From Alkalicella caledoniensis (GTDB taxonomy: Bacteria > Bacillota > Proteinivoracia > Proteinivoracales > Proteinivoracaceae), in contig NZ_CP058559.1 in NCBI RefSeq assembly GCF_014467015.1, forward strand, positions 3,038,001 to 3,102,000: a stretch of DNA of 64,000 bases, written 5' to 3'. A program made the position numbers and the translations under genes. How positions within the stretch are numbered: position 1 is the first letter of the stretch; the number at the start of each line of letters is the position of its first letter. Shown here piece after piece: positions 37,898 to 59,768 of the stretch. Below the pieces are notes generated by a model. The model had not been told where the DNA came from, did no database searches, and saw only the letters and a program-made list of their open reading frames with translations.

Positions 37898-38137
37898 TTG
37901 TTAAAACATTGTTGAAGGTAATCATGTATGGAATTTCACGGTTAAAACATTTCAGTTGAAGATGGTGTCCGAAGGTTTAATGATTCGATTTGTAGGGGAT
38001 GTAGTGATAGGGAATTTTGTGTGGTGAAAATGGTGTCAGTATGTTTTAGTGATTTTGAATTTTAGTGGAGTTAGTGATGGGAATTTTAGTGTAGTTAGTG
38101 GCAACTTTTTCTAATATGACCCCATTTACATTACTCT

Positions 38138-38188
38138 TGGTGCCAAATGGTGGGTTTTGTTGGTGAAGATGGTGTCCGATGGTTTTTA
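38138..38188 (-). repeat. Degenerate piece of the 330-bp repeat family
   Basis: It reads CTTGGTGCCAAATGGTGGGT and GGTGAAGATGGTGTCC, the reverse-strand form of the CACCAACAAA..CCACCAATTGGCACCAAG block of the tandem array at 48958-50936. Shorter GGTGTC fragments lie between 37960 and 38060. Confidence 0.6.
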
Positions 38189-38214
38189 AGTTTTTAATAA
38201 AATAAAAATATATA

Positions 38215-38249: not shown

Positions 38250-38505
38250 TATATCAAGAGCCGAAGATAGGAAAAGTAAGTTTAGCTATGGCTTCAGCGA
38301 GCGGACACAGAGTGGAAGGTCCGCAGTCTAACTTAACTGAAACGCAACCTGGAGGCTGTCTTAAGAAACTAAGTATTAAGACACGGCAATCCCCGTTATA
38401 GGATACGAGTGGCTAGCCTATTTAGGCTAGTAATTAGAGTGGTACCGCGGATAATATATCCGTCTCTTTTGTTAAAGAAAGAGGCGGATTTTCTTATTTT
38501 TATAA
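38250..38505 (+). promoter_or_regulatory. T-box leader (tRNA-sensing riboswitch)
   Basis: The T-box sequence AGAGTGGTACCGCGG is at 38436-38450. It is followed by a terminator whose arms, ATCCGTCTCTTT (38458-38469) and AAAGAGGCGGAT (38478-38489), lead into T-rich sequence. Stem I is recognisable from AGCCGAAGATAGG to CCTGGAGGCT, with the AGCGAGC..GTGGAAGGTCCGC apical part. The specifier loop reads CTGAAACGCAACC. After GAA the codon could be ACG (Thr, 38342-38344) or the overlapping CGC (Arg, 38343-38345); I cannot decide. Uncharged cognate tRNA would allow read-through into the permease gene. Confidence 0.93.
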
Positions 38506-40038: not shown

Positions 40039-40072
40039 TAAACTAAGCCAAAAGAATACAAAACCTCCTCAC

Positions 40073-40190
40073 ACTAACTTTCACTAAAATGCTCCACACT
40101 ATATAAAAAAAAGTAATAAAGACCTCCTTCTATAACTCTTGGTGTCAATTGGTGAATGGTTTGTTGGTGCAAATGGTGTCCAAAGGCTGA
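40073..40190 (-). repeat. Partial inverted copy of the 330-bp repeat
   Basis: It contains TCTTGGTGTCAATTGGTG, GGTTTGTTGGTGCAAATGGT and GTCCAAAGG, the reverse complement of one end of the tandem unit at 48958-50936, with an internal deletion. Confidence 0.75.
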
Positions 40191-40195
40191 TCTCT

Positions 40196-40330
40196 AAAGT
40201 CTTTAAAATCAGTGGAAATCAGTGAAAATCCGTGGCAAAGACTTTGATTTAGCCCTTAACTATTAGCCTTTAGAGATCATTAGATCATATAGATCTGTGG
40301 CTAAGCTTTTGCCTTTTCTTCTAGCTTTTG
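40196..40330 (-). repeat. Dispersed repeat with CACGGATTTTCACTGATTTT motif, inverted copy
   Basis: It reads AGTGAAAATCCGTGGCAAAG, ACTTTGATTTAGCCCTTAAC and GATCTGTGGCTAAGC. Direct copies are at 48881-48957 and 57522-57745. No coding content. Confidence 0.7.
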
Positions 40331-40335
40331 ACTTT

Positions 40336-40575
40336 TAGATTAATATAGACCATGTTAGATCAGTGGCAACAAAACAGGTCTTTTTTTAAATTAGTCACGG
40401 GCCATATACTGCCAAGATATTTTTACCACGGCCTAAAGAAGCTACTAATTCTGTCCTGCACGGAAGGGCTTGCTCTTTATAAAAAATTAGTAATAAAGAC
40501 CTAACTTCCATAACTTTTGGTGTCAATTGGTGAATGGTTTGTTGGTGAACATGGTGTCCAAAGGTTTCTAAAATC
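40336..40575 (-). repeat. Nearly full inverted copy of the 330-bp repeat
   Basis: It shares a run of about 30 identical bases with the reverse complement of the tandem unit (from GTCACGGGCCATATACTGCC onward), then GCCTAAAGAAGCT, GTCCTGCACGGAAGGGCTT and the GGTGTCAATTGGTG end. It is diverged by small changes from the array units. Confidence 0.85.
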
Positions 40576-40635
40576 CTTAAAATCTGTGACTAAGAATTGA
40601 CCTTATTCATTTAAAAGCAGGAAAATTAATTAGAG

Positions 40636-43831: not shown

Positions 43832-44938
43832 TTACTCGATGGTACCGATAGAGACAATATTTATTTTAGTTACAATATTTATGTCCACATCTTGGAAGGT
43901 TTCATTCCATTTTTCTCCATCAAAATAATTAGGATGATATGCTCTTACATTTTTTCCATAGCCAATACTGTCTACCTTAAAATCATTTTGAAGTTTATTC
44001 ACTATTTCTTCACACATTAATTTAACTTGATAAGCGAAAACTTTTTCTAAACGTCTAATAACATCTTGATCAAGGGGCAGTGGAGAAGTTTGTTCTGTAA
44101 TAGCAGCGTCTATGGTTATGTAGTGATCTATGAAGATATTATCGTCTACTACTTTTGCGATTATTCTATTTTTACCACCTAGTTTTCTGATGGTGACATA
44201 GTCAGATTCTGAGTCAGGTAGGTGGGAGGTTAAAAAACCATCTCTGGCCCTAGCTTTTAGTAGAGCAAAGGCAACACTTTCATCGTGAGTTAATGTTCCA
44301 ATCATTTTATCTTTTTCGAAAATGGCAGTACTATTAACTATCTGCTCTTCTTTTGTGTTACCATATTTTAGATAAGGTACAGTTGGTTCTATACCATCAG
44401 TGTGCAAGTCGTTGTTAAATTCTCTTACTGTGGTAAATGGGACGGTGGATGTAAAGAAACTATTGTGAACTAAATCAAACAGATAAAGGCTTACTAAAGG
44501 AGCAAACTTAGGTTCAATATTCATTAAGTCTGTTGCCCTTCCCTCGGTTACGATCATGCGAATGGTTCCCCTGCTTTCGGGATCACGAACTAGTGTATCT
44601 AAGTGTCTTCTGATACCTTGCTTAGCTACGTCTTCTCCAAGTATAAACATCTTTGTGTTATTAAATGTTATACGCCTTGAAGATTTATTCTGTATGTTAT
44701 CTTGGGCGTTTCTCAGTGTGTTACTTACACTGGATATTTCTATTTTACTTTCTTGTGCCTCAGGGTCCACAGTTGGTGATACGATTGTTACGAGGTATTG
44801 ATCTTCACTGTCCTTGCTGATATCGATACCTATGGCGAATACAAGGTACAGATCATCTATATTTCTTGCATCCCAACAAGCACTTAACATAAAGATCAAA
44901 CCAATGGAAAGTACAATAAACTTACTTTTTCTTTTCAT
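43832..44938 (-). CDS. Ger(x)C family spore germination lipoprotein
   Basis: 368 residues. The N terminus is a lipoprotein signal with lipobox LSAC (Cys21), followed by the family start WDARNIDDLYLVFAIGIDIS. The rest matches GerAC-type C subunits: NTLRNAQDNIQNKSSRRITF, NTKMFILGEDVAKQGIRRHL and a C-terminal KVDSIGYGKNVRAYHP segment. It is the last gene of a gerA-type operon and overlaps the B subunit gene by 17 bases. It works in the inner spore membrane as part of a nutrient germinant receptor. Confidence 0.93.
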   Translation of the reverse strand: MKRKSKFIVLSIGLIFMLSACWDARNIDDLYLVFAIGIDISKDSEDQYLVTIVSPTVDPEAQESKIEISSVSNTLRNAQDNIQNKSSRRITFNNTKMFILGEDVAKQGIRRHLDTLVRDPESRGTIRMIVTEGRATDLMNIEPKFAPLVSLYLFDLVHNSFFTSTVPFTTVREFNNDLHTDGIEPTVPYLKYGNTKEEQIVNSTAIFEKDKMIGTLTHDESVAFALLKARARDGFLTSHLPDSESDYVTIRKLGGKNRIIAKVVDDNIFIDHYITIDAAITEQTSPLPLDQDVIRRLEKVFAYQVKLMCEEIVNKLQNDFKVDSIGYGKNVRAYHPNYFDGEKWNETFQDVDINIVTKINIVSIGTIE

Positions 44939-46031
44939 CTATTTTCACCTTTCTGCCTCTTACTAAAAACATCAACAGTAAAATTAGTGGAAGAGCTATT
45001 CCAAAGAATAAATTAGCATAGCCTATATACTCCTTAATACTACCCAACATCATTGCATTTTTCGGATACAAACTTAAGAAAAATACAACAGGTGAAAATA
45101 TGTAAACAAATATACCATTACTACTTGTAGAAAAGGTTTTTTGCAGGACATACGTTCCCACAAAAAATTGAATTATTATGGTTGCTATAACTGTATATAT
45201 CCAAAAAATCGAGAAAAATACTTCTATTCTTTCTATAATTAAGAAGTCTACCACATCAAGATAATTAATTGTAGGGTATAAGATAGTCTGCAACTCTTGG
45301 TAACCAAATAAAGCTATTTGGGTAAACACTGTTAATGTATAGATTAAGGTTACCATAAATACACAAAGGACTGAGGTTTTAACTATGTTCTTATTTTTAT
45401 TTGCAATCAATGGGTAAATAAATAGAACTATCTCATACCCCGCATATGTAAAGACTGATGGAAGTGCACCTTCGGCAATAGTTGCAAACCCCGTTCCACC
45501 TACAGGCATTACGTTTAATAAAGAAAGTTTGTTAATAGAAACTAAAATTAAAGGAAGCATAGGAAAAAGTGTGTAGAACAGGATTTGAGAAAAACGTGCA
45601 ACTATTGTTATACCATCCTTTGTTAAATTTACAGCAGTTAGTATGGCTATTAAGATAATAACCCATAAGGGTGTGCGGGGTAAAAACCAAGTTGAAATCA
45701 TATCTGCTAAAGACCTTAGTACAGCACTTGTTACAACTAATGAGTAAATAAAATAAAGGATGGATATCACATATGTTACAGGCTTTGAAAGAAGGTAGGA
45801 AAAATACTGAAAGAATGTCATTTCATCAAAATGGCTGGCAATAAAAATAGAAAGGTATGTAAAAATACAGACAAGGATTCCTGCAATTAGTACTGATATC
45901 CATGCATCTTGCATAGATATTTTAGTTACCTGAGTTGCAAGATTCAAAATCCCTGTTCCTATCATTATACTTATTATCACAATGTAAAATTGAATTGCAG
46001 TTATTTGACCTTTAGTATATTTATTGAACAT
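44922..46031 (-). CDS. GerAB-like spore germination permease
   Basis: 369 residues. ATG 46031 overlaps the stop of the A subunit gene; an immediately preceding GTG at 46034 is an alternative. About ten membrane helices are visible, with the endospore germination permease start YTKGQITAIQFYIVIISIMI and later VMPVGGTGFATIAEGALPSV. This family belongs to the amino acid permease (APC) superfamily and forms the ligand-binding B subunit of germinant receptors. The germinant cannot be predicted. Confidence 0.93.
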   Translation of the reverse strand: MFNKYTKGQITAIQFYIVIISIMIGTGILNLATQVTKISMQDAWISVLIAGILVCIFTYLSIFIASHFDEMTFFQYFSYLLSKPVTYVISILYFIYSLVVTSAVLRSLADMISTWFLPRTPLWVIILIAILTAVNLTKDGITIVARFSQILFYTLFPMLPLILVSINKLSLLNVMPVGGTGFATIAEGALPSVFTYAGYEIVLFIYPLIANKNKNIVKTSVLCVFMVTLIYTLTVFTQIALFGYQELQTILYPTINYLDVVDFLIIERIEVFFSIFWIYTVIATIIIQFFVGTYVLQKTFSTSSNGIFVYIFSPVVFFLSLYPKNAMMLGSIKEYIGYANLFFGIALPLILLLMFLVRGRKVKIDEKKK

Positions 46032-47566
46032 CACTTTGCCCTTCTTGTACGCTTGGTTTTAGGTGTGGTTTGTTGGTTGTATAGTGGTTTTCGCAAAAGT
46101 GAATCTGTAATTAGAGCAGGATCGCTTGGGCTGAATGGTGATAAATAGGGAAACCCAAAGGAAGATAGTCTACATAAATGCGCTAAAATCCAGCACCAAG
46201 TAATTATCATTCCATAAGCTCCAAAAGTTGCAGCGGAAACTACCATTGGTATCCTTATAAACCTAAGAGCGTAACTAGTACTATAATAGGGTACTATATA
46301 TGCTCCTAAGGCTGTTATGGCAACCACAATAACCATAATAGGACTTACGAGGTTAGCCCTCACAGCAGCATCACCGAGTACTATAGCACCAACAATACCT
46401 ATTGTTTGACCTATTGAGGCTGGTAATCTAGCACTTGCCTCTCTTAACAATTCTATAGTAACTTCCATTAGAACTACCTCTATAACAGGAGGATAGGGAA
46501 CACCTATTCTTGATTTAGCAATACTAAATGCTAAATCTGTTGGTAAAACGTCCTGATGAAAGGTAGTTAAAGCAACATAAAAAGCAGGAAATGAAGTTGT
46601 TATAAGAAATCCAAGATATCTTATAAGCCTTAAGAAATTACCGTATAATAATCTTTCATAGTAATCATCGGGTGATTGAAATAGCTGGGAAAAAGTTATA
46701 GGCAATAATAAGCAATCGGGTGAACCATCTACAAAGATAGCTATCTTTCCTTCAAGCAGGTTAGAACAAACCTTATCTGGTCGTTCAGTAGTCTGCATTT
46801 GAGGGAACATAGAGTAAGGGCTTTCTTCCAAGTGTTGTTCAATGTAAGCTGTTTCAAATACTCCGTTTATTTTGATTTTTTTTATCCTGCTCAATATATC
46901 ATCTAAGAGGTTTTGATTAACCAATTCTTCGACAAACAGGATTGCAACAGTAGTTTTGGTTCTTTCCCCAATGGTTAATTCCCTTATCTTCAGTTTTGGG
47001 TCTTTTATTTTTCGCCTAATCAAAGAAGTGTTTGTCCTTAAATTTTCTATAAAACCATCCTTTGGACCACGTATAACATGTTCAATTTTTGATTCTTCTA
47101 TGGCTCTATCACTGAAACCTTTTGTGTTTAATATAAGAAATTCGGTGAAAGTATCTATGATTAGGATCGTGCTTCCAGAAAATAAATTGTCTGTTAAACT
47201 GCTTAATTTTATGTCACTACTTATATCATCAATATGTAAATATTGTTGCAGTACACTTATTTTACTGAAATTATTTTTCGATAGAAGGTTTTTCTTGCTC
47301 AACAACGGCCTCAATATGTCTCGATTGATTACCTGCTTATCTACTAAGCCATCAACAAAAATTAATACACCACTCAATTCACCTTCTAATAATTTGATGG
47401 TTATCTCTTTGTATTTCACATCACAGCAGTCAACCAGAATCTGATTCTTTAGCTTGTTGATATTGATTGATATATTTTTGCTAATCATCATTCCTGAACC
47501 AACCTTCATTACTTTTTCTTTTTGGTTGGAGTGCAATAATCGATCCAAGAATTTATCTATTATCAT
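46031..47566 (-). CDS. GerAA-like spore germination protein
   Basis: 511 residues from ATG 47566. A soluble N-terminal domain (about 30-270) contains SGSTILIIDTFTEFLILNTK, RAIEESKIEHVIRGPKDGFI and ENLRTNTSLIRRKIKDPKLK, the clearest GerA signature. About five membrane helices (about 285-460) follow, with YPPVIEVVLMEVTIELLREA and IGIVGAIVLGDAAVRANLVS, then a short basic tail. It is the first gene of the gerA-gerB-gerC operon and shows that the organism forms endospores. Confidence 0.95.
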   Translation of the reverse strand: MIIDKFLDRLLHSNQKEKVMKVGSGMMISKNISININKLKNQILVDCCDVKYKEITIKLLEGELSGVLIFVDGLVDKQVINRDILRPLLSKKNLLSKNNFSKISVLQQYLHIDDISSDIKLSSLTDNLFSGSTILIIDTFTEFLILNTKGFSDRAIEESKIEHVIRGPKDGFIENLRTNTSLIRRKIKDPKLKIRELTIGERTKTTVAILFVEELVNQNLLDDILSRIKKIKINGVFETAYIEQHLEESPYSMFPQMQTTERPDKVCSNLLEGKIAIFVDGSPDCLLLPITFSQLFQSPDDYYERLLYGNFLRLIRYLGFLITTSFPAFYVALTTFHQDVLPTDLAFSIAKSRIGVPYPPVIEVVLMEVTIELLREASARLPASIGQTIGIVGAIVLGDAAVRANLVSPIMVIVVAITALGAYIVPYYSTSYALRFIRIPMVVSAATFGAYGMIITWCWILAHLCRLSSFGFPYLSPFSPSDPALITDSLLRKPLYNQQTTPKTKRTRRAK

Positions 47567-47811: not shown

Positions 47812-48837
47812 ATGGGATATAGTTTTAGGAATGATTATAGTGAAGGTTGCCATCAAAGTATTTTAGAAGCCATGCTTAAGAGCAATTTAGATCAGCAAGT
47901 AGGCTATGGTGAAGATGAGTTCAATATAGAGGCGAAAAATATATTGCGTGAAAAGATGGGCAACCCCAATGCTGATATCCATCTGGTGTCAGGAGGTACT
48001 CAAGCAAATCTCATAGTAATATCATCTATTTTGCGACCATATGAATCAGTGGTTGCAGCAAACACAGGCCATATAAATGTACATGAAACTGGTGCCATAG
48101 AAGCCACAGGCCATAAGGTCAATGTGGTTGATAGTAAAGATGGGAAGCTCACTCCTGAGGGTATAAAAGAAGTGCTTGATTTTCATACCGATGAGCATAT
48201 GGTTAAACCTAGGCTTGTATACATATCAAATACCACTGAGATTGGTACTGTTTATAATAAGAAAGAACTGGGAGAATTATGGTCTTTTTGTAAGGAGAAT
48301 GACTTATTATTATTTTTGGATGGAGCACGCTTAGGCTCTGCCTTAACTTCACATGAAAATGATTTATCTTTAGCTGAGTTATCAAAGCTGGTGGATGTGT
48401 TTTACATAGGGGGTACGAAAAATGGTGCACTTTTAGGTGAAGCTATTGTTATTAATAATGATGAACTAAAAAAGAACTTTAGGTTTCACTTAAAGCAACG
48501 GGGTGCTTTGTTAGCTAAAGGTAGAGTGTTAGGTTTACAATTTTTAGAGCTCTTCAAAAATGATTTGTTCTTTGACCTAGCAAAACATTCTAACTCCATG
48601 GCCATTAAATTAAGTCAGGGGATAAAAGAGCAGGGGTACGAATTTTTGACAAAGCCTGAGTCTAATCAGATTTTCCCCATACTACCAAATGAACTCATTG
48701 AGAAGTTGAGCAAGAAGTATGAGTTTTATGTATGGGCAAAAGAGGATGAGACTAGTTCATCAATCAGATTAGTAACATCCTGGGCCACCAGTGAAGAAGC
48801 TGTGGATGAGTTTATACAAGATTTAGCAAAACGTTAG
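47812..48837 (+). CDS. Low-specificity threonine aldolase-like PLP enzyme
   Basis: 341 residues from ATG 47812, with a GAAAGGGCG SD. It matches the beta-eliminating lyase/threonine aldolase family: SFRNDYSEGCHQSILEAM at the start, VSGGTQANLIVISSIL, GHINVHETGAIEATGHK, FLDGARLGSAL and the PLP lysine in YIGGTKNGALLGEA. It would cleave L-threonine or allo-threonine to glycine and acetaldehyde. Precise substrate choice is not readable. Monocistronic, with terminator overlapping the stop codon. Confidence 0.92.
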   Translation: MGYSFRNDYSEGCHQSILEAMLKSNLDQQVGYGEDEFNIEAKNILREKMGNPNADIHLVSGGTQANLIVISSILRPYESVVAANTGHINVHETGAIEATGHKVNVVDSKDGKLTPEGIKEVLDFHTDEHMVKPRLVYISNTTEIGTVYNKKELGELWSFCKENDLLLFLDGARLGSALTSHENDLSLAELSKLVDVFYIGGTKNGALLGEAIVINNDELKKNFRFHLKQRGALLAKGRVLGLQFLELFKNDLFFDLAKHSNSMAIKLSQGIKEQGYEFLTKPESNQIFPILPNELIEKLSKKYEFYVWAKEDETSSSIRLVTSWATSEEAVDEFIQDLAKR

Positions 48838-48860
48838 ACTTATGTCTAGCGTTTTTCTTT
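48829..48860 (+). terminator. Rho-independent terminator
   Basis: AAACGTTAGAC pairs with GTCTAGCGTTT (one G-U) and is followed by a T-rich tail; the left arm overlaps the aldolase stop codon. Confidence 0.8.
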
Positions 48861-48880
48861 ATACCAAACATAAGATTCAG

Positions 48881-48957
48881 TAGCCACAGATTTAGAGATA
48901 TAAAGCTAAGGGGTAAATCAAAGTCTTAGCCACGGATTTTCACTGATTTTCACGGAT
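48881..48957 (+). repeat. Dispersed repeat with CACGGATTTTCACTGATTTT motif
   Basis: It reads AGCCACAGATTTAGAG, then AAATCAAAGTCTTAGCCACG and the GATTTTCACTGATTTTCACG block, directly before the tandem array. Other copies are at 40196-40330 (inverted) and 57522-57745. Confidence 0.75.
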
Positions 48958-50936
48958 TTTAGGGAAGTTTAGAAACCTTTGTACACCATGATCACCAACA
49001 AAGCATCCACCAATTGGCACCAAGAGTTATGTAAGTAGGGTCTTTGGTTACTAAGCTTTTATAAAGAGTAAGCCCTTCCGTTCAGGACAGAATTAAATAG
49101 CTTCTTTAGGCCGTGTTAAAAATATCTTGGCAGTATATGGCCCGTGACTTATTTATATAAAGACCTATTTTGTTGACACATATCTAACATGATCTTTATG
49201 ATCTTTCTAAAAAAGATAAAGACTATAAATCTTTAAAGTTTGCTTTTTATAGTGTTATGCTTTTTAGTGAAAAGTAGTGGTTAAAGCATTTAGGGAAGTT
49301 TAGAAACCTTTGTACACCATGATCACCAACAAAGCATCCACCAATTGGCACCAAGATTTATGTAAGTAGGGTCTTTGGTTACTAAGCTTTTATAAAGAGT
49401 AAGCCCTTCCGTGCAGGACAGAATTAAGTAGCTTCTTTAGCCCTGGTAAAAATATCTTGGCAGTATATGGCTCGTGACTTATTTAAATAAAGACCTATTT
49501 TGTTGACACATATCTAACATGATCTTTATGATCTTTCTAAAAAAAGATAAAGACTATAAATCTTTAAAGTTTGCTTTTTATAGTGTTATGCTTTTTAGTG
49601 AAAAGTAGTGGTTAAAGCATTTAGGGAAGTTTAGAAACCTTTGTACACCATGTTCACCAACAAACCATCCACCAATTGACACCAAGATTTATGTAAGTAG
49701 TGTCTTTATTACTAAGCTTTTATAAAGAGTAAGCCCTTCCGTTCAGGACAGAATTAAATAGCTTCTTTAGGCCGTGTTAAAAATATCTTGGCAGTATATG
49801 GCCCGTGACTTATTTATATAAAGACCTATTTTGTTGACACATATCTAACATGATCTTTATGATCTTTCTAAAAAAGATAAAGACTATAAATCTTTAAAGT
49901 TTGCTTTTTATAGTGTTATGCTTTTTAGTGAAAAGTAGTGGTTAAAGCATTTAGGGAAGTTTAGAAACCTTTGTACACCATGATCACCAACAAAGCATCC
50001 ACCAATTGGCACCAAGATTTATGTAAGTAGGGTCTTTGGTTACTAAGCTTTTATAAAGAGTAAGCCCTTCCGTGCAGGACAGAATTAAGTAGCTTCTTTA
50101 GCCCTGGTAAAAATATCTTGGCAGTATATGGCTCGTGACTTATTTAAATAAAGACCTATTTTGTTGACACATATCTAACATGATCTTTATGATCTTTCTA
50201 AAAAAAGATAAAGACTATAAATCTTTAAAGTTTGCTTTTTATAGTGTTATGCTTTTTAGTGAAAAGTAGTGGTTAAAGCATTTAGGGAAGTTTAGAAACC
50301 TTTGTACACCATGTTCACCAACAAACCATCCACCAATTGACACCAAGATTTATGTAAGTAGTGTCTTTATTACTAAGCTTTTATAAAGAGTAAGCCCTTC
50401 CGTTCAGGACAGAATTAAATAGCTTCTTTAGGCCGTGTTAAAAATATCTTGGCAGTATATGGCCCGTGACTTATTTATATAAAGACCTATTTTGTTGACA
50501 CAGATCTAACATGATCTTTATGATCTTTCTAAAAAAGATAAAGACTATAAATCTTTAAAGTTTGCTTTTTATAGTGTTATGCTTTTTAGTGAAAAGTAGT
50601 GGTTAAAGCATTTAGGGAAGTTTAGAAACCTTTGTACACCATGTTCACCAACAAACCATCCACCAATTGACACCAAGATTTATGTAAGTAGTGTCTTTAT
50701 TACTAAGCTTTTATAAAGAGTAAGCCCTTCCGTGCAGGACAGAATTAAATAGCTTCTTTAGGCCGTGTTAAAAATATCTTGGCAGTATATGGCCCGTGAC
50801 TTATTTAAATAAAGACCTATTTTGTTGCCACAGATCTAACATGATCTTTATGATCTTTCTAAAAGCTAAAGTCTATAAATCTTTAAAGTTTGCTTTTTAT
50901 AGTGTTATGCTTTTTAGTGAAAAGTAGTGGTAAAAG
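48958..50936 (+). repeat. Six tandem ~330-bp non-coding repeat units
   Basis: Units start with TTTAGGGAAGTTTAGAAACC at 48958, 49289, 49620, 49950, 50281 and 50611, giving periods of 331, 331, 330, 331 and 330 bases; the last unit is about 326. No unit encodes a protein. Each contains the landmark blocks ACCAACAAA..CCACCAATTG, AAGCCCTTCCG..CAGGACAG and TTTTTAGTGAAAAGTAGTGG. Variants alternate. Units 2 and 4 share GTGCAGGACAG and CCCTGGTAAAAA, whereas units 3 and 5 share TTCAGGACAG and GGCCGTGTTAAAAA. Thus 49289-49949 and 49950-50610 form two copies of a 661-bp dimer, differing at very few bases. Inverted copies are at 40073-40190 and 40336-40575, and a tail fragment is at 57745-57803. Confidence 0.95.
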
Positions 50937-51026
50937 CTATTTATCTATGTTATAAAAGTCATTGATCTTACTGTGGTAACAAAACTTCTTTTTTGCATTA
51001 TGTAGGGTAAAAGAGGAGGGATTGTT

Positions 51027-51611
51027 ATGATTTACACTGTTAGAAGAGGCGATACATTGTATGGAATTGCTAAAAAACAAGGCATTACCTTGCATCAACT
51101 ACTCCAGCTTAACCCTGCAATTGTTGACCCAAACAAAATCTATGTAGGGGATAAAATTATAATAAAAAAAGGAAAGGTAGAATCAGATTTTGGCGGTGTT
51201 GTTGATTTTTATCTGCAACGGGGATGGAGGATAACTTCAGATTATGGAATAAGACGAGATCCTTTTTCTGGAGTCAATACTTTTCACAGAGGAGTTGACT
51301 TTGGAGGTAAACCAAAAGGGGAACCCATATATACACCCATTGATGGTAAAGTTGCATATGCCTCTAGCTATAGCGGATGGGGGAATTTGATAGGTGTTGA
51401 AGATAAAAATGGGTTCATTCACATATTTGCTCACTTAGATAAGCTGCTTAAATCTGTGGGAGATAATGTTAAAAGGGGAGATGTGGTTGGTTTAAACGGC
51501 TCCACTGGAAATAGCACTGGATCACACCTGCATTATCAGATTAACACCCCAAGGGGAGGGATTGTTGGGGTTAATGCTCATACAGACCCTAAATTTTATT
51601 ACGACTGTTGA
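51027..51611 (+). CDS. LysM-M23 cell-wall peptidase-like protein
   Basis: 194 residues from ATG 51027 after AGAGGAGGG. A LysM domain (about 1-48) reads YTVRRGDTLYGIAKKQGITL and DPNKIYVGDKIIIKK. The M23 (LytM) domain follows (about 70-190). It has RGVDFGGKPKGEPIYTPIDG with the first His-Asp ligands (HRGVDF), FAHLDKL, and the HLHYQI motif giving catalytic and zinc histidines. There is no signal peptide or membrane helix; export would need another route, or it acts in the mother cell on the spore coat or cortex, as LysM proteins do (inference). Confidence 0.92.
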   Translation: MIYTVRRGDTLYGIAKKQGITLHQLLQLNPAIVDPNKIYVGDKIIIKKGKVESDFGGVVDFYLQRGWRITSDYGIRRDPFSGVNTFHRGVDFGGKPKGEPIYTPIDGKVAYASSYSGWGNLIGVEDKNGFIHIFAHLDKLLKSVGDNVKRGDVVGLNGSTGNSTGSHLHYQINTPRGGIVGVNAHTDPKFYYDC

Positions 51612-57521: not shown

Positions 57522-57745
57522 TAGCCACAAATCTATAGACTAAAGGCAAAAGCTTAGCCACAGATCTACATGATTTATTGGATCTCTAAAAGCTAAAAGC
57601 CAAATCAAAATATTAGCCACGGATTTACACTGATTTTCTCGGATTTTAAAGGCAAAAGTTCCTTAATTATAAGACCTTTTTAGCCACAGATCTACATGAT
57701 CTACTTGATCTCTAAAAGCTAAAAGCTAGAGGCTAAAAGTATTTC
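57522..57745 (+). repeat. Dispersed repeats with GCCACAGATCTACATGATC-type motifs
   Basis: Several related segments: AGCCACAAATCTATAGAC, AGCCACAGATCTACATGAT (twice), ATCTCTAAAAGCTAAAAGC (twice) and AGCCACGGATTTACACTGAT. Same family as 40196-40330 and 48881-48957. No gene. Confidence 0.7.
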
Positions 57746-57803
57746 CTTAGTTTGCTTTTAATAGTGTAGAGCTTTTTAGTGAAAAGTAGTGGTTAAAGCC
57801 TTT
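57745..57803 (+). repeat. Tail fragment of the 330-bp repeat
   Basis: It contains GCTTTTTAGTGAAAAGTAGT and GGTTAAAGC, the end block of every array unit at 48958-50936, next to the NCS2-type gene. Confidence 0.8.
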
Positions 57804-57808
57804 GATCT

Positions 57809-59308
57809 TTAGGCACCTATGTTTTTGCTTGTTTTAATTGATTTACTTGCTTGTAGGTGGAAGGAGTAAAACAGTGCTGCGATTACTAGATAACCAACTG
57901 CGAATTGGTAATCGTATAAAAGGGCTAAGTTTGGTGCATGCATGAATCCAGTTGCACTTAATACAGTTGCCACCAAAGCAGCAATTGTAGCTTTATGAAA
58001 TTGGTTATCGATGATAAAAACTAAAATTGTTCCCCAGATAAGTCCTGTGAACATTGCCCCTTGACCTAGAGGAACTATTCCTGAAGAAAGCTTTGATACA
58101 ACTTCCCCTGCAGATCCATTGAACCTTGTCATGATATAGTTTGCGAAGTAGGGGAACATGGCAAGGGTTACCGCTGGGAAGTGATTTTTATTAACAGAAG
58201 AAAATGCTTGGGAAACCATTGATATACCCACAAAAACTAATATTGGTGCTATAACAGGCACTGGAATAATTTTTGACATGGCTGCAATTATACCAAATGT
58301 AGAAGCCAGTAAGAAGACAATACCATTTAGTACAGAATAGCCGCGACCTGCACCCATCCATTTAGAACCTATTGAAGCGATATACACAGTTGTTGGGAAA
58401 ACACCACCAAAGATTGTACCAATAATTGTACCTAATCCATCGGCTATTTGCGCTTCTTGTACATCGTAGTCATCACCAGATGCTGCCATTGCTTCAACAT
58501 TGTTCATGGTTTCTACAAAGTTATAAATTGAGATTGGTAGCAAGATAGCTAGAAGTGTTATCATCTCCGTAAATAAGGACCTAATTCCCCATAGGAAGCC
58601 TAAGGAAGGTATTGGAGCATAAAAACTAACGGTATCCAGACCATCTTTAATTTGTGATAATTGAGCATCACCAAAAATATAAGCTAAGGAAGTACCAATT
58701 ATAATTGCAAATAACGATGCGGGAATCTTAAAGGGCATAGGCTTTTTAGCGATCAAACCAATAAGGATTATAGCTAATACAACCATACCTATGATAGGCA
58801 TTTCATAGGTATTAAACAATAGTTCTCCACCGATAAATGCGAAGGCCACACCAGCTAAAGCTCCCAACATGGCTGCTCTAGGGACGTGTTTTCTAACAAA
58901 ACGACCAATAACGCTACCTAGTATCTCAATGGCTCCACCTAGGAAACATGCAGCCATACCAATTTTCCATGCTAAATCTGGATCTCCTGTAAGGGCTAAT
59001 GCTGGGCTTAATACCCCAAATAAGTAAATAAACATTACAGGAGTACTGATGCCATAAGATAGGGCTGTAACATCACTGCGGTTTTCTTTTATGGCAAGTT
59101 TTTTTGCCATGTGGGCGTAATAGAAATTACCAAAAAGGACGGCTACTGCAGCACCAGGGATTACTCTACCAAATACGATATCATTTGGGAAACCCATGGA
59201 AATCATCGTTAAAGCGATAAGTACAAAATTTGCTAAATTATTTTGAAAAAGTGCAAAAAAACCATCAAAATCCTCTCTTTTAAATAATGGGTAAGCTTGC
59301 TGTTTCAT
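57809..59308 (-). CDS. NCS2-type nucleobase permease
   Basis: 499 residues. ATG 59308 is well placed behind AGAGGA on the minus strand; ATG 59317 would be too close to it. About twelve to fourteen membrane helices, with an NCS2-like FPNDIVFGRVIPGAAVAVLF, KIGMAACFLGGAIEILGSVI, PISIYNFVETMNNVEAMAAS and TIFGGVFPTTVYIASIGSKW. The sequence is divergent within NCS2/AzgA-like permeases. The guanine-class riboswitch directly upstream supports purine uptake, most likely guanine, hypoxanthine or xanthine. Confidence 0.85.
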   Translation of the reverse strand: MKQQAYPLFKREDFDGFFALFQNNLANFVLIALTMISMGFPNDIVFGRVIPGAAVAVLFGNFYYAHMAKKLAIKENRSDVTALSYGISTPVMFIYLFGVLSPALALTGDPDLAWKIGMAACFLGGAIEILGSVIGRFVRKHVPRAAMLGALAGVAFAFIGGELLFNTYEMPIIGMVVLAIILIGLIAKKPMPFKIPASLFAIIIGTSLAYIFGDAQLSQIKDGLDTVSFYAPIPSLGFLWGIRSLFTEMITLLAILLPISIYNFVETMNNVEAMAASGDDYDVQEAQIADGLGTIIGTIFGGVFPTTVYIASIGSKWMGAGRGYSVLNGIVFLLASTFGIIAAMSKIIPVPVIAPILVFVGISMVSQAFSSVNKNHFPAVTLAMFPYFANYIMTRFNGSAGEVVSKLSSGIVPLGQGAMFTGLIWGTILVFIIDNQFHKATIAALVATVLSATGFMHAPNLALLYDYQFAVGYLVIAALFYSFHLQASKSIKTSKNIGA

Positions 59309-59470: not shown

Positions 59471-59533
59471 AAATAGCTAACTGAATATATGAATAAACAG
59501 ACTTACTTGTTTTTAAGTAAGTTAGCTAATAAA

Positions 59534-59603
59534 ACCCGTAGTCAGACCATTTACGGCAGTCTGGTAGAAACTTATGGACCGTATCTCCAAAATTATACGA
59601 GTG
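59534..59603 (-). promoter_or_regulatory. Purine riboswitch aptamer, guanine class
   Basis: Read on the minus strand, the three-way junction is clear. P1 arms are ACTCGTA and TACGGGT. The P2 loop carries GGAGATACGGTCC. The junction reads TTTCTACC, P3 is CAGACTGCCGTAAATGGTCTG-like with the conserved CCGTAAA loop, and the closing J3/1 segment is ACTA. The discriminating base is C, as in guanine-sensing xpt-type aptamers, not the U of adenine sensors. Confidence 0.92.
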
Positions 59604-59768
59604 TAACTTATTCAATTTTGATAAATCATATTCTATTACAATACATAGAATAAATCAAGGGTTATTTAACTTTTCCATATTATTCTTAAAATTAGGAGGA
59701 ATTTCAGCTATATAAGGAGAAAAGTATTTAGGTACAAACGGATGTTTTGGAAGACAAAGGAGGTTTAT

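Follow-up and report, generated by a model that had tools for sequence, protein, structure and literature searches.

The question raised by the locus described here is whether a run of long, nearly identical non-coding units in a bacterial chromosome represents a satellite of the eukaryotic type, or a variant of the repeats already known from bacteria. The array lies in the genome of Alkalicella caledoniensis, which consists of one contig of 3,695,371 bp. The window, i.e. the whole analysed stretch of 64,000 nucleotides, corresponds to positions 3038001-3102000, and all coordinates refer to the window unless they are marked as genome positions.

Structure of the array

The array occupies a 2189-bp intergenic gap between a lyase gene and a LysM-M23 gene. 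Tandem Repeats Finder (TRF) placed it on the plus strand at 48958-50943 with a period of 330, 6.0 copies and 96% match, in agreement with the original prediction of six units of almost constant length (330/331 bp), while a period of 661 bp fitted equally well (3.0 copies) with a wider period limit. The units are also non-coding, as had been proposed: the ORFs inside them reach at most 35 aa (TTG start), with the exception of a 43-aa GTG ORF in unit 6. The array and its neighbours are composed as follows.

47812..48837, plus strand: left neighbour gene, beta-eliminating lyase of the threonine-aldolase type (PF01212)
48958..50943, plus strand: whole array, six units of 330/331 bp (TRF, unit alignment)
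48958..49287, plus strand: unit 1, a chimera with its left part of the unit 2/unit 4 type and its right part of the unit 3/unit 5 type (variable columns)
49288..49618, plus strand: unit 2, type A, without any difference from unit 4 (unit alignment)
49619..49948, plus strand: unit 3, type B, one difference from unit 5 (unit alignment)
49949..50279, plus strand: unit 4, type A; together with unit 5 a repeat of units 2+3 (unit alignment)
50280..50609, plus strand: unit 5, type B (unit alignment)
50610..50943, plus strand: unit 6, nearest of all units to the outgroup copy, with most ancestral states (outgroup comparison)
51027..51611, plus strand: right neighbour gene, LysM + peptidase M23

The alignment shows no difference between units 2 and 4 and a single one between units 3 and 5, compared to 14 between units 2 and 3 and 15 between units 4 and 5, which establishes the claimed near-identical dimers 2+3 and 4+5 as real. 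Unit 6 is the most divergent one, differing from the others at 10-21 positions. Because the 661-bp dimer occurs as only one near-identical repeat of itself, the array was not classified as a higher-order satellite, which would contain many copies of a multi-unit period. A CRISPR array, with repeats of about 24-47 bp and unique spacers, was likewise rejected, since the units of 330 bp are repeated throughout and are without unique spacers.

The unit as a composite of dispersed modules

The genome-wide search for the 330-bp unit that had been called for yielded 82 matches of one unit in its own genome, most of them partial, and thereby revealed the composite nature of the unit. The ends of the partial matches coincide within the unit, delimiting segments at about positions 17-109 (C), 112-163 (E), 164-200 (F), 210-248 (B), and 260-330 (D). 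The unit is composed of these five short intergenic repeat modules in the order C-E-F-B-D, and a sixth module, A, is located directly upstream of the array. The modules are represented in unit 6 and at the left edge by the following segments.

50626..50718, plus strand: module C (CACCAACAAACCATCCACCAATTGACACCAA...), about positions 17-109 of the unit (match boundaries, HMM)
50721..50772, plus strand: module E (GCCCTTCCGTGCAGGACAGAATTA...GGCCGTGTTAAA) (unit matches, HMM)
50773..50809, plus strand: module F (ATCTTGGCAGTATATGGCCCGTGACT) (unit matches, HMM)
50825..50857, plus strand: module B (GCCACAGATCTAACATGATCTTTATGATCT) (unit matches, HMM)
50887..50934, plus strand: module D (AAGTTTGCTTTTTATAGTGTTATGCTTTTTAGTGAAAAGTAGTGG) (repeat matches, HMM)
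48927..48960, plus strand: module A at the left array edge (CACGGATTTTCACTGATTTTCACGGATTTT) (repeat matches, HMM)

Profile HMMs were built for C, E, F, B, and D as well as for A and a further module, K. They gave 265 non-overlapping matches in 357 kb of stretches that had been chosen for their unit matches, a biased sample enriched by design whose counts do not stand for the whole genome, compared to 9 matches in an even 300-kb sample, indicating that the modules are clustered rather than evenly spread. When ORFs of 90 aa or more are considered, 261 of the 265 matches are located outside them. About 34 places in the 3.7-Mb genome bear similar modules, on both strands and in preferred order; in the stretches read, these modules are intergenic. 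Neighbouring modules hold their order and strand in the HMM map, as is evident from the numbers of adjacent pairs (BA 28 vs AB 6, AD 14 vs DA 0, EF 11 vs FE 0, CD 13 vs DC 8, with DC representing the junction of tandem units). The usual chains are B-A-D, C-D, A-E-F-D, and C-E-F-B-D, the last of which is the array unit. The HMM seeds G and H gave no matches in the stretches, although such sequences were visible by eye, and short palindromic modules are therefore undercounted. One mosaic repeat, at genome positions 615316-618161, is seemingly interrupted by an inserted sequence of about 1.7 kb, probably an IS, which has the inverted ends GAGACTGTGTC/GACACAGTCTC and is accompanied by a duplication of CTTGTG.

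Apart from the array, the window contains diverged inverted and fragment copies of the unit, as originally reported, which were recovered at four locations, and a 24-base core word of the unit has seven matches in the window, compared to none in 100 shuffles.

40343..40583, minus strand: diverged inverted copy of C-E-F-B, used as outgroup (unit match 40343-40581, 89%)
40072..40342, minus strand: modules B, A, C, D (minus-strand reading) adjoining the inverted copy (HMM; fragment match 40112-40186)
38118-38189, minus strand: fragment copy of the unit
57547..57810, plus strand: second mosaic of the order B-A-B-D (HMM; unit match 57662-57799)

Further intergenic tandem arrays were detected by TRF in the fetched stretches, with periods and copy numbers of 254 bp x 7.2 (also 507), 69 x 8.8 (also 137), 222 x 3.7, 350 x 2.4, 194 x 2.5, and 198 x 3.8 (also 401). 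Most of them share modules with the 330-bp unit, while the 69-bp array at genome positions 185097-185699, which has the repeat AAGGCTGAAGCCTTGGCTACAA and a dimer period of 137 bp, represents a repeat family of its own. In the array of 254 bp x 7.2 (genome 3679543-3681375), E and F have opposite orientations. All of its units but the divergent first one are nearly identical, similar to the 330-bp array, where the divergent unit is the last. With several other intergenic arrays of periods between 69 and 350 bp, some of them showing a dimer period, the 330-bp array belongs to a genome-wide pattern. The view of the unit as a satellite monomer has therefore to be abandoned, since it is a composite of dispersed modules that several other intergenic arrays share.

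Genomic setting and distribution

In two relatives, the M23, lyase, and sigma-like genes are neighbours, arranged as M23-lyase-sigma, and the gaps measure about 85 and 245 bp; no match to the unit is found anywhere in the genomes of these relatives. The order here is lyase-array-M23-sigma, which places the array at a spot where the gene order differs between lineages. Elsewhere in the window, a T-box leader (38255-38470, plus strand) and a purine riboswitch (59519-59620, minus strand) score above the respective Rfam gathering thresholds, and a spore germination operon coding for a GerA-type protein, a spore permease, and a third adjoining protein is found at 43832-47566 on the minus strand.

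The unit matches its own genome only: it has no match in the four other genomes of the family (five genomes from three genera, with family and order searched), nor in phage and plasmid collections searched by blastn. Viral contigs do not contain the exact core word of the unit, and the exact F-module word was not found in a set of bacterial and archaeal contigs from which the own genome was possibly excluded. Phrase A is the sole module word found outside this genome. It occurs once in the phylum sample (397 other genomes), and eight loci of a single Anaerolineales metagenome-assembled genome (MAG) carry it. The loci read in this MAG sit in an element with the inverted ends CTAGC...GCTAG. This small repeated element has the inverted ends CTAGCCACCTGACAGTTT...AAACTGTCAGGTAGCTAG, and one locus also carries a hairpin-like repeat (ACCGCAGAG/CTCTGCGGT). 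The shared phrase may reflect common ancestry or the convergence of a simple phrase, and it concerns module A only, not the array unit.

Origin of the array

Taken together, it is quite probable that the array arose as a recombination-made tandem amplification of one C-E-F-B-D composite of dispersed intergenic modules. At the outset, families of short non-coding modules would have accumulated and joined in preferred intergenic orders, a pattern that is directly visible in the present genome, and an A-C-E-F-B-D chain would have come to lie between the lyase and M23 genes, as judged from the inverted outgroup copy together with unit 6 and the left flank. A single duplication of the C-to-D block would then have followed, brought about by illegitimate joining where 4-5 bp are similar (ATTTA/ATTTTA). 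The exact D-to-C junction occurs five times in the genome, always within this array, indicating that the first duplication took place at this locus. It reads AAAGC-ATTTA-GGG, compared to AAAGCTATTTATC at the right and GGATTTTAGGG at the left flank, which suggests a joining at 4-5 similar bases. At the columns varying between units, unit 6 agrees most often with the outgroup (40343-40583), in a score that takes in a few flank columns. This likeness and the array-only junction suggest one illegitimate duplication followed by unequal exchange, while the old look of unit 6 may also result from edge units escaping homogenisation.

Unequal exchange of the RecA type or slipped replication would subsequently have led to six units; the resulting pattern is observed, and either process is a candidate agent. 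The last large growth step would have involved the 661-bp two-unit block, whose duplication appears to be recent, on the basis of one difference in 661 bp. Adjacent identical dimers of unlike units turned up in 41% of the runs when six-unit arrays were simulated by random block duplication, a simple and arbitrary growth model, and the dimer thus needs no special explanation. The initial interpretation as a satellite shaped by unequal crossing-over on a dimer was accordingly of the right kind with respect to unequal exchange, but its higher-order aspect comes down to just a single two-unit duplication. A selected function would not be required for any of these steps. Judged from one assembly of one strain, the array is probably prone to changes in copy number, and neutral or nearly neutral.

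Alternative explanations

The foremost alternative would regard the composites ending with D as MITE-like non-autonomous mobile elements, whose arrays grow by insertion beside old copies. The fixed order of the modules, with array units always beginning with C or B and finishing with D, fits this explanation, as do their dispersal over about 34 loci on both strands and the occurrence of the related phrase A within the Anaerolineales element with inverted ends. However, the block identity of unit 2 with unit 4 and unit 3 with unit 5 is better explained by block duplication, and terminal inverted repeats are not found at the ends of the unit; neither unit 6 nor the outgroup copy has a pair of inverted arms at its two ends. 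A partner transposase did not come to light either, short of a systematic search. Similarity to an IS or MITE that would account for the units had been considered from the start, and no known element explains them. We therefore consider a MITE-like origin unlikely. It is slightly less probable still that the C-to-D and B-A-D composites represent small elements of a new class, mobile or self-spreading, that are built from phrases of about 10-bp periodicity (CACGGATTTT, CACTAATTTT, CACCAATTTT, ACATGATCT) recurring in unrelated phyla, and that form arrays by adjacent insertion.

There is little reason to attribute the copy number to an assembly artefact. The identical units 2 and 4 are indeed the type of sequence that assemblers miscount, but the units differ at many positions, the edges are unlike the centre, and similar arrays occur elsewhere in this one-contig genome.

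An equally poor case can be made for a multi-copy conserved non-coding RNA gene, a conserved RNA being among the functions initially considered, or for a cis-regulatory RNA. Units 1-5 each contain a promoter-like TTGACA-N18-TATGAT sequence (49173-50524; 11/12 of the promoter consensus), and on the minus strand a weak hairpin resembling a terminator is present in each unit. Against this stand the 11 promoter-like sites found compared to 8.6 expected, and the missing TTGACA in unit 6 and the outgroup, both of which read TTGCCA, identifying the TTGACA of units 1-5 as a derived change. The structure prediction with covariation that had been suggested is similarly unfavourable, with folding z-scores of +1.3 (plus strand) and -1.5 (minus strand), and two-sided changes in 0/7 pairs of the consensus fold of the E-F alignment. 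A search of Rfam with the region 48840-51030 gave no match at E values up to 1.

Finally, a nucleoid-organising or segregation site, another of the functions initially proposed, is the least probable explanation, with the two parS motifs located at 1.9377 Mb, 1.15 Mb away from the array at 3.087 Mb, with modules on both strands in both halves of the chromosome, and with the array absent from the relatives. Loci bearing the repeats do become commoner with increasing distance from the parS motif (4, 6, 9, and 15 per distance quarter; KS p 0.001, for loci that are clustered and not independent), and this trend is only a lead. An orientation rule of the modules with respect to the replichores was rejected, since they are found on both strands.

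Comparison with known repeats

Several motifs in preferred combinations at many intergenic loci, which are characteristic of intergenic mosaic repeats, are present here. The array is most likely a well-formed example of this known bacterial kind, and not a centromere-like satellite. Eukaryotic satellites with higher-order repeats consist of tandem units with divergent edges and a dimer pattern and are subject to unequal exchange. The array shares with them the tandem arrangement, a divergent edge, the dimer pattern, and probably the unequal exchange, but has only six units, one dimer duplication, and no known centromere role.

Among the bacterial repeats, NIME arrays combine several short intergenic repeat types over 200-2700 bp and are seen as recombination substrates; they are built on the 20-bp dRS3 (ATTCCC N8 GGGAAT) with inverted ends (PMC3898611). 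A mixture of several short intergenic repeat types is also found in the array, whereas the repetition of whole composites head to tail sets it apart. Membership in the NIMEs was rejected, as dRS3 with two mismatches occurs three times in the window compared to 2.9 expected, and never in the array. The BOX elements of Streptococcus pneumoniae show a fixed subunit order with tandem boxB between boxA and boxC, vary in length by unequal exchange or slippage, are predicted to fold, and are linked to an IS (PMC3049150). Compared by architecture only, they resemble the array as tandemly amplified composites of fixed order, but just boxB is multiplied in BOX, while it is the whole composite here, for which no stable fold was found. 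The BIMEs of enterobacteria are many-copy intergenic mosaics built on REP palindromes in alternating orientation (PMC2817692, PMC3049150). Similarity to the array lies in the many copies of an intergenic mosaic of several motifs; an assignment to BIME/REP was dismissed, since the unit contains no palindromic hairpin, as indicated by the folding z-scores given above and the presence of weak inverted pairs only. The STAR elements of staphylococci, which are intergenic direct repeats of a short motif in variable number with spacers and a period of about 50 nt (PMC3532100), resemble the array in being intergenic direct repeats, but are without a composite of several modules.

A search of the open-licence literature for an earlier description of the phrases returned nothing relevant, and the sequence family is apparently undescribed among the open-licence papers searched. 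The array adds a firmicute that has several tandem arrays and whose set of ordered intergenic modules is rich and apparently undescribed. It also illustrates that a satellite-like look, including the dimer, is obtainable from one block duplication, and it offers a good natural system in which to follow how arrays in bacteria arise, expand, and become homogenised.
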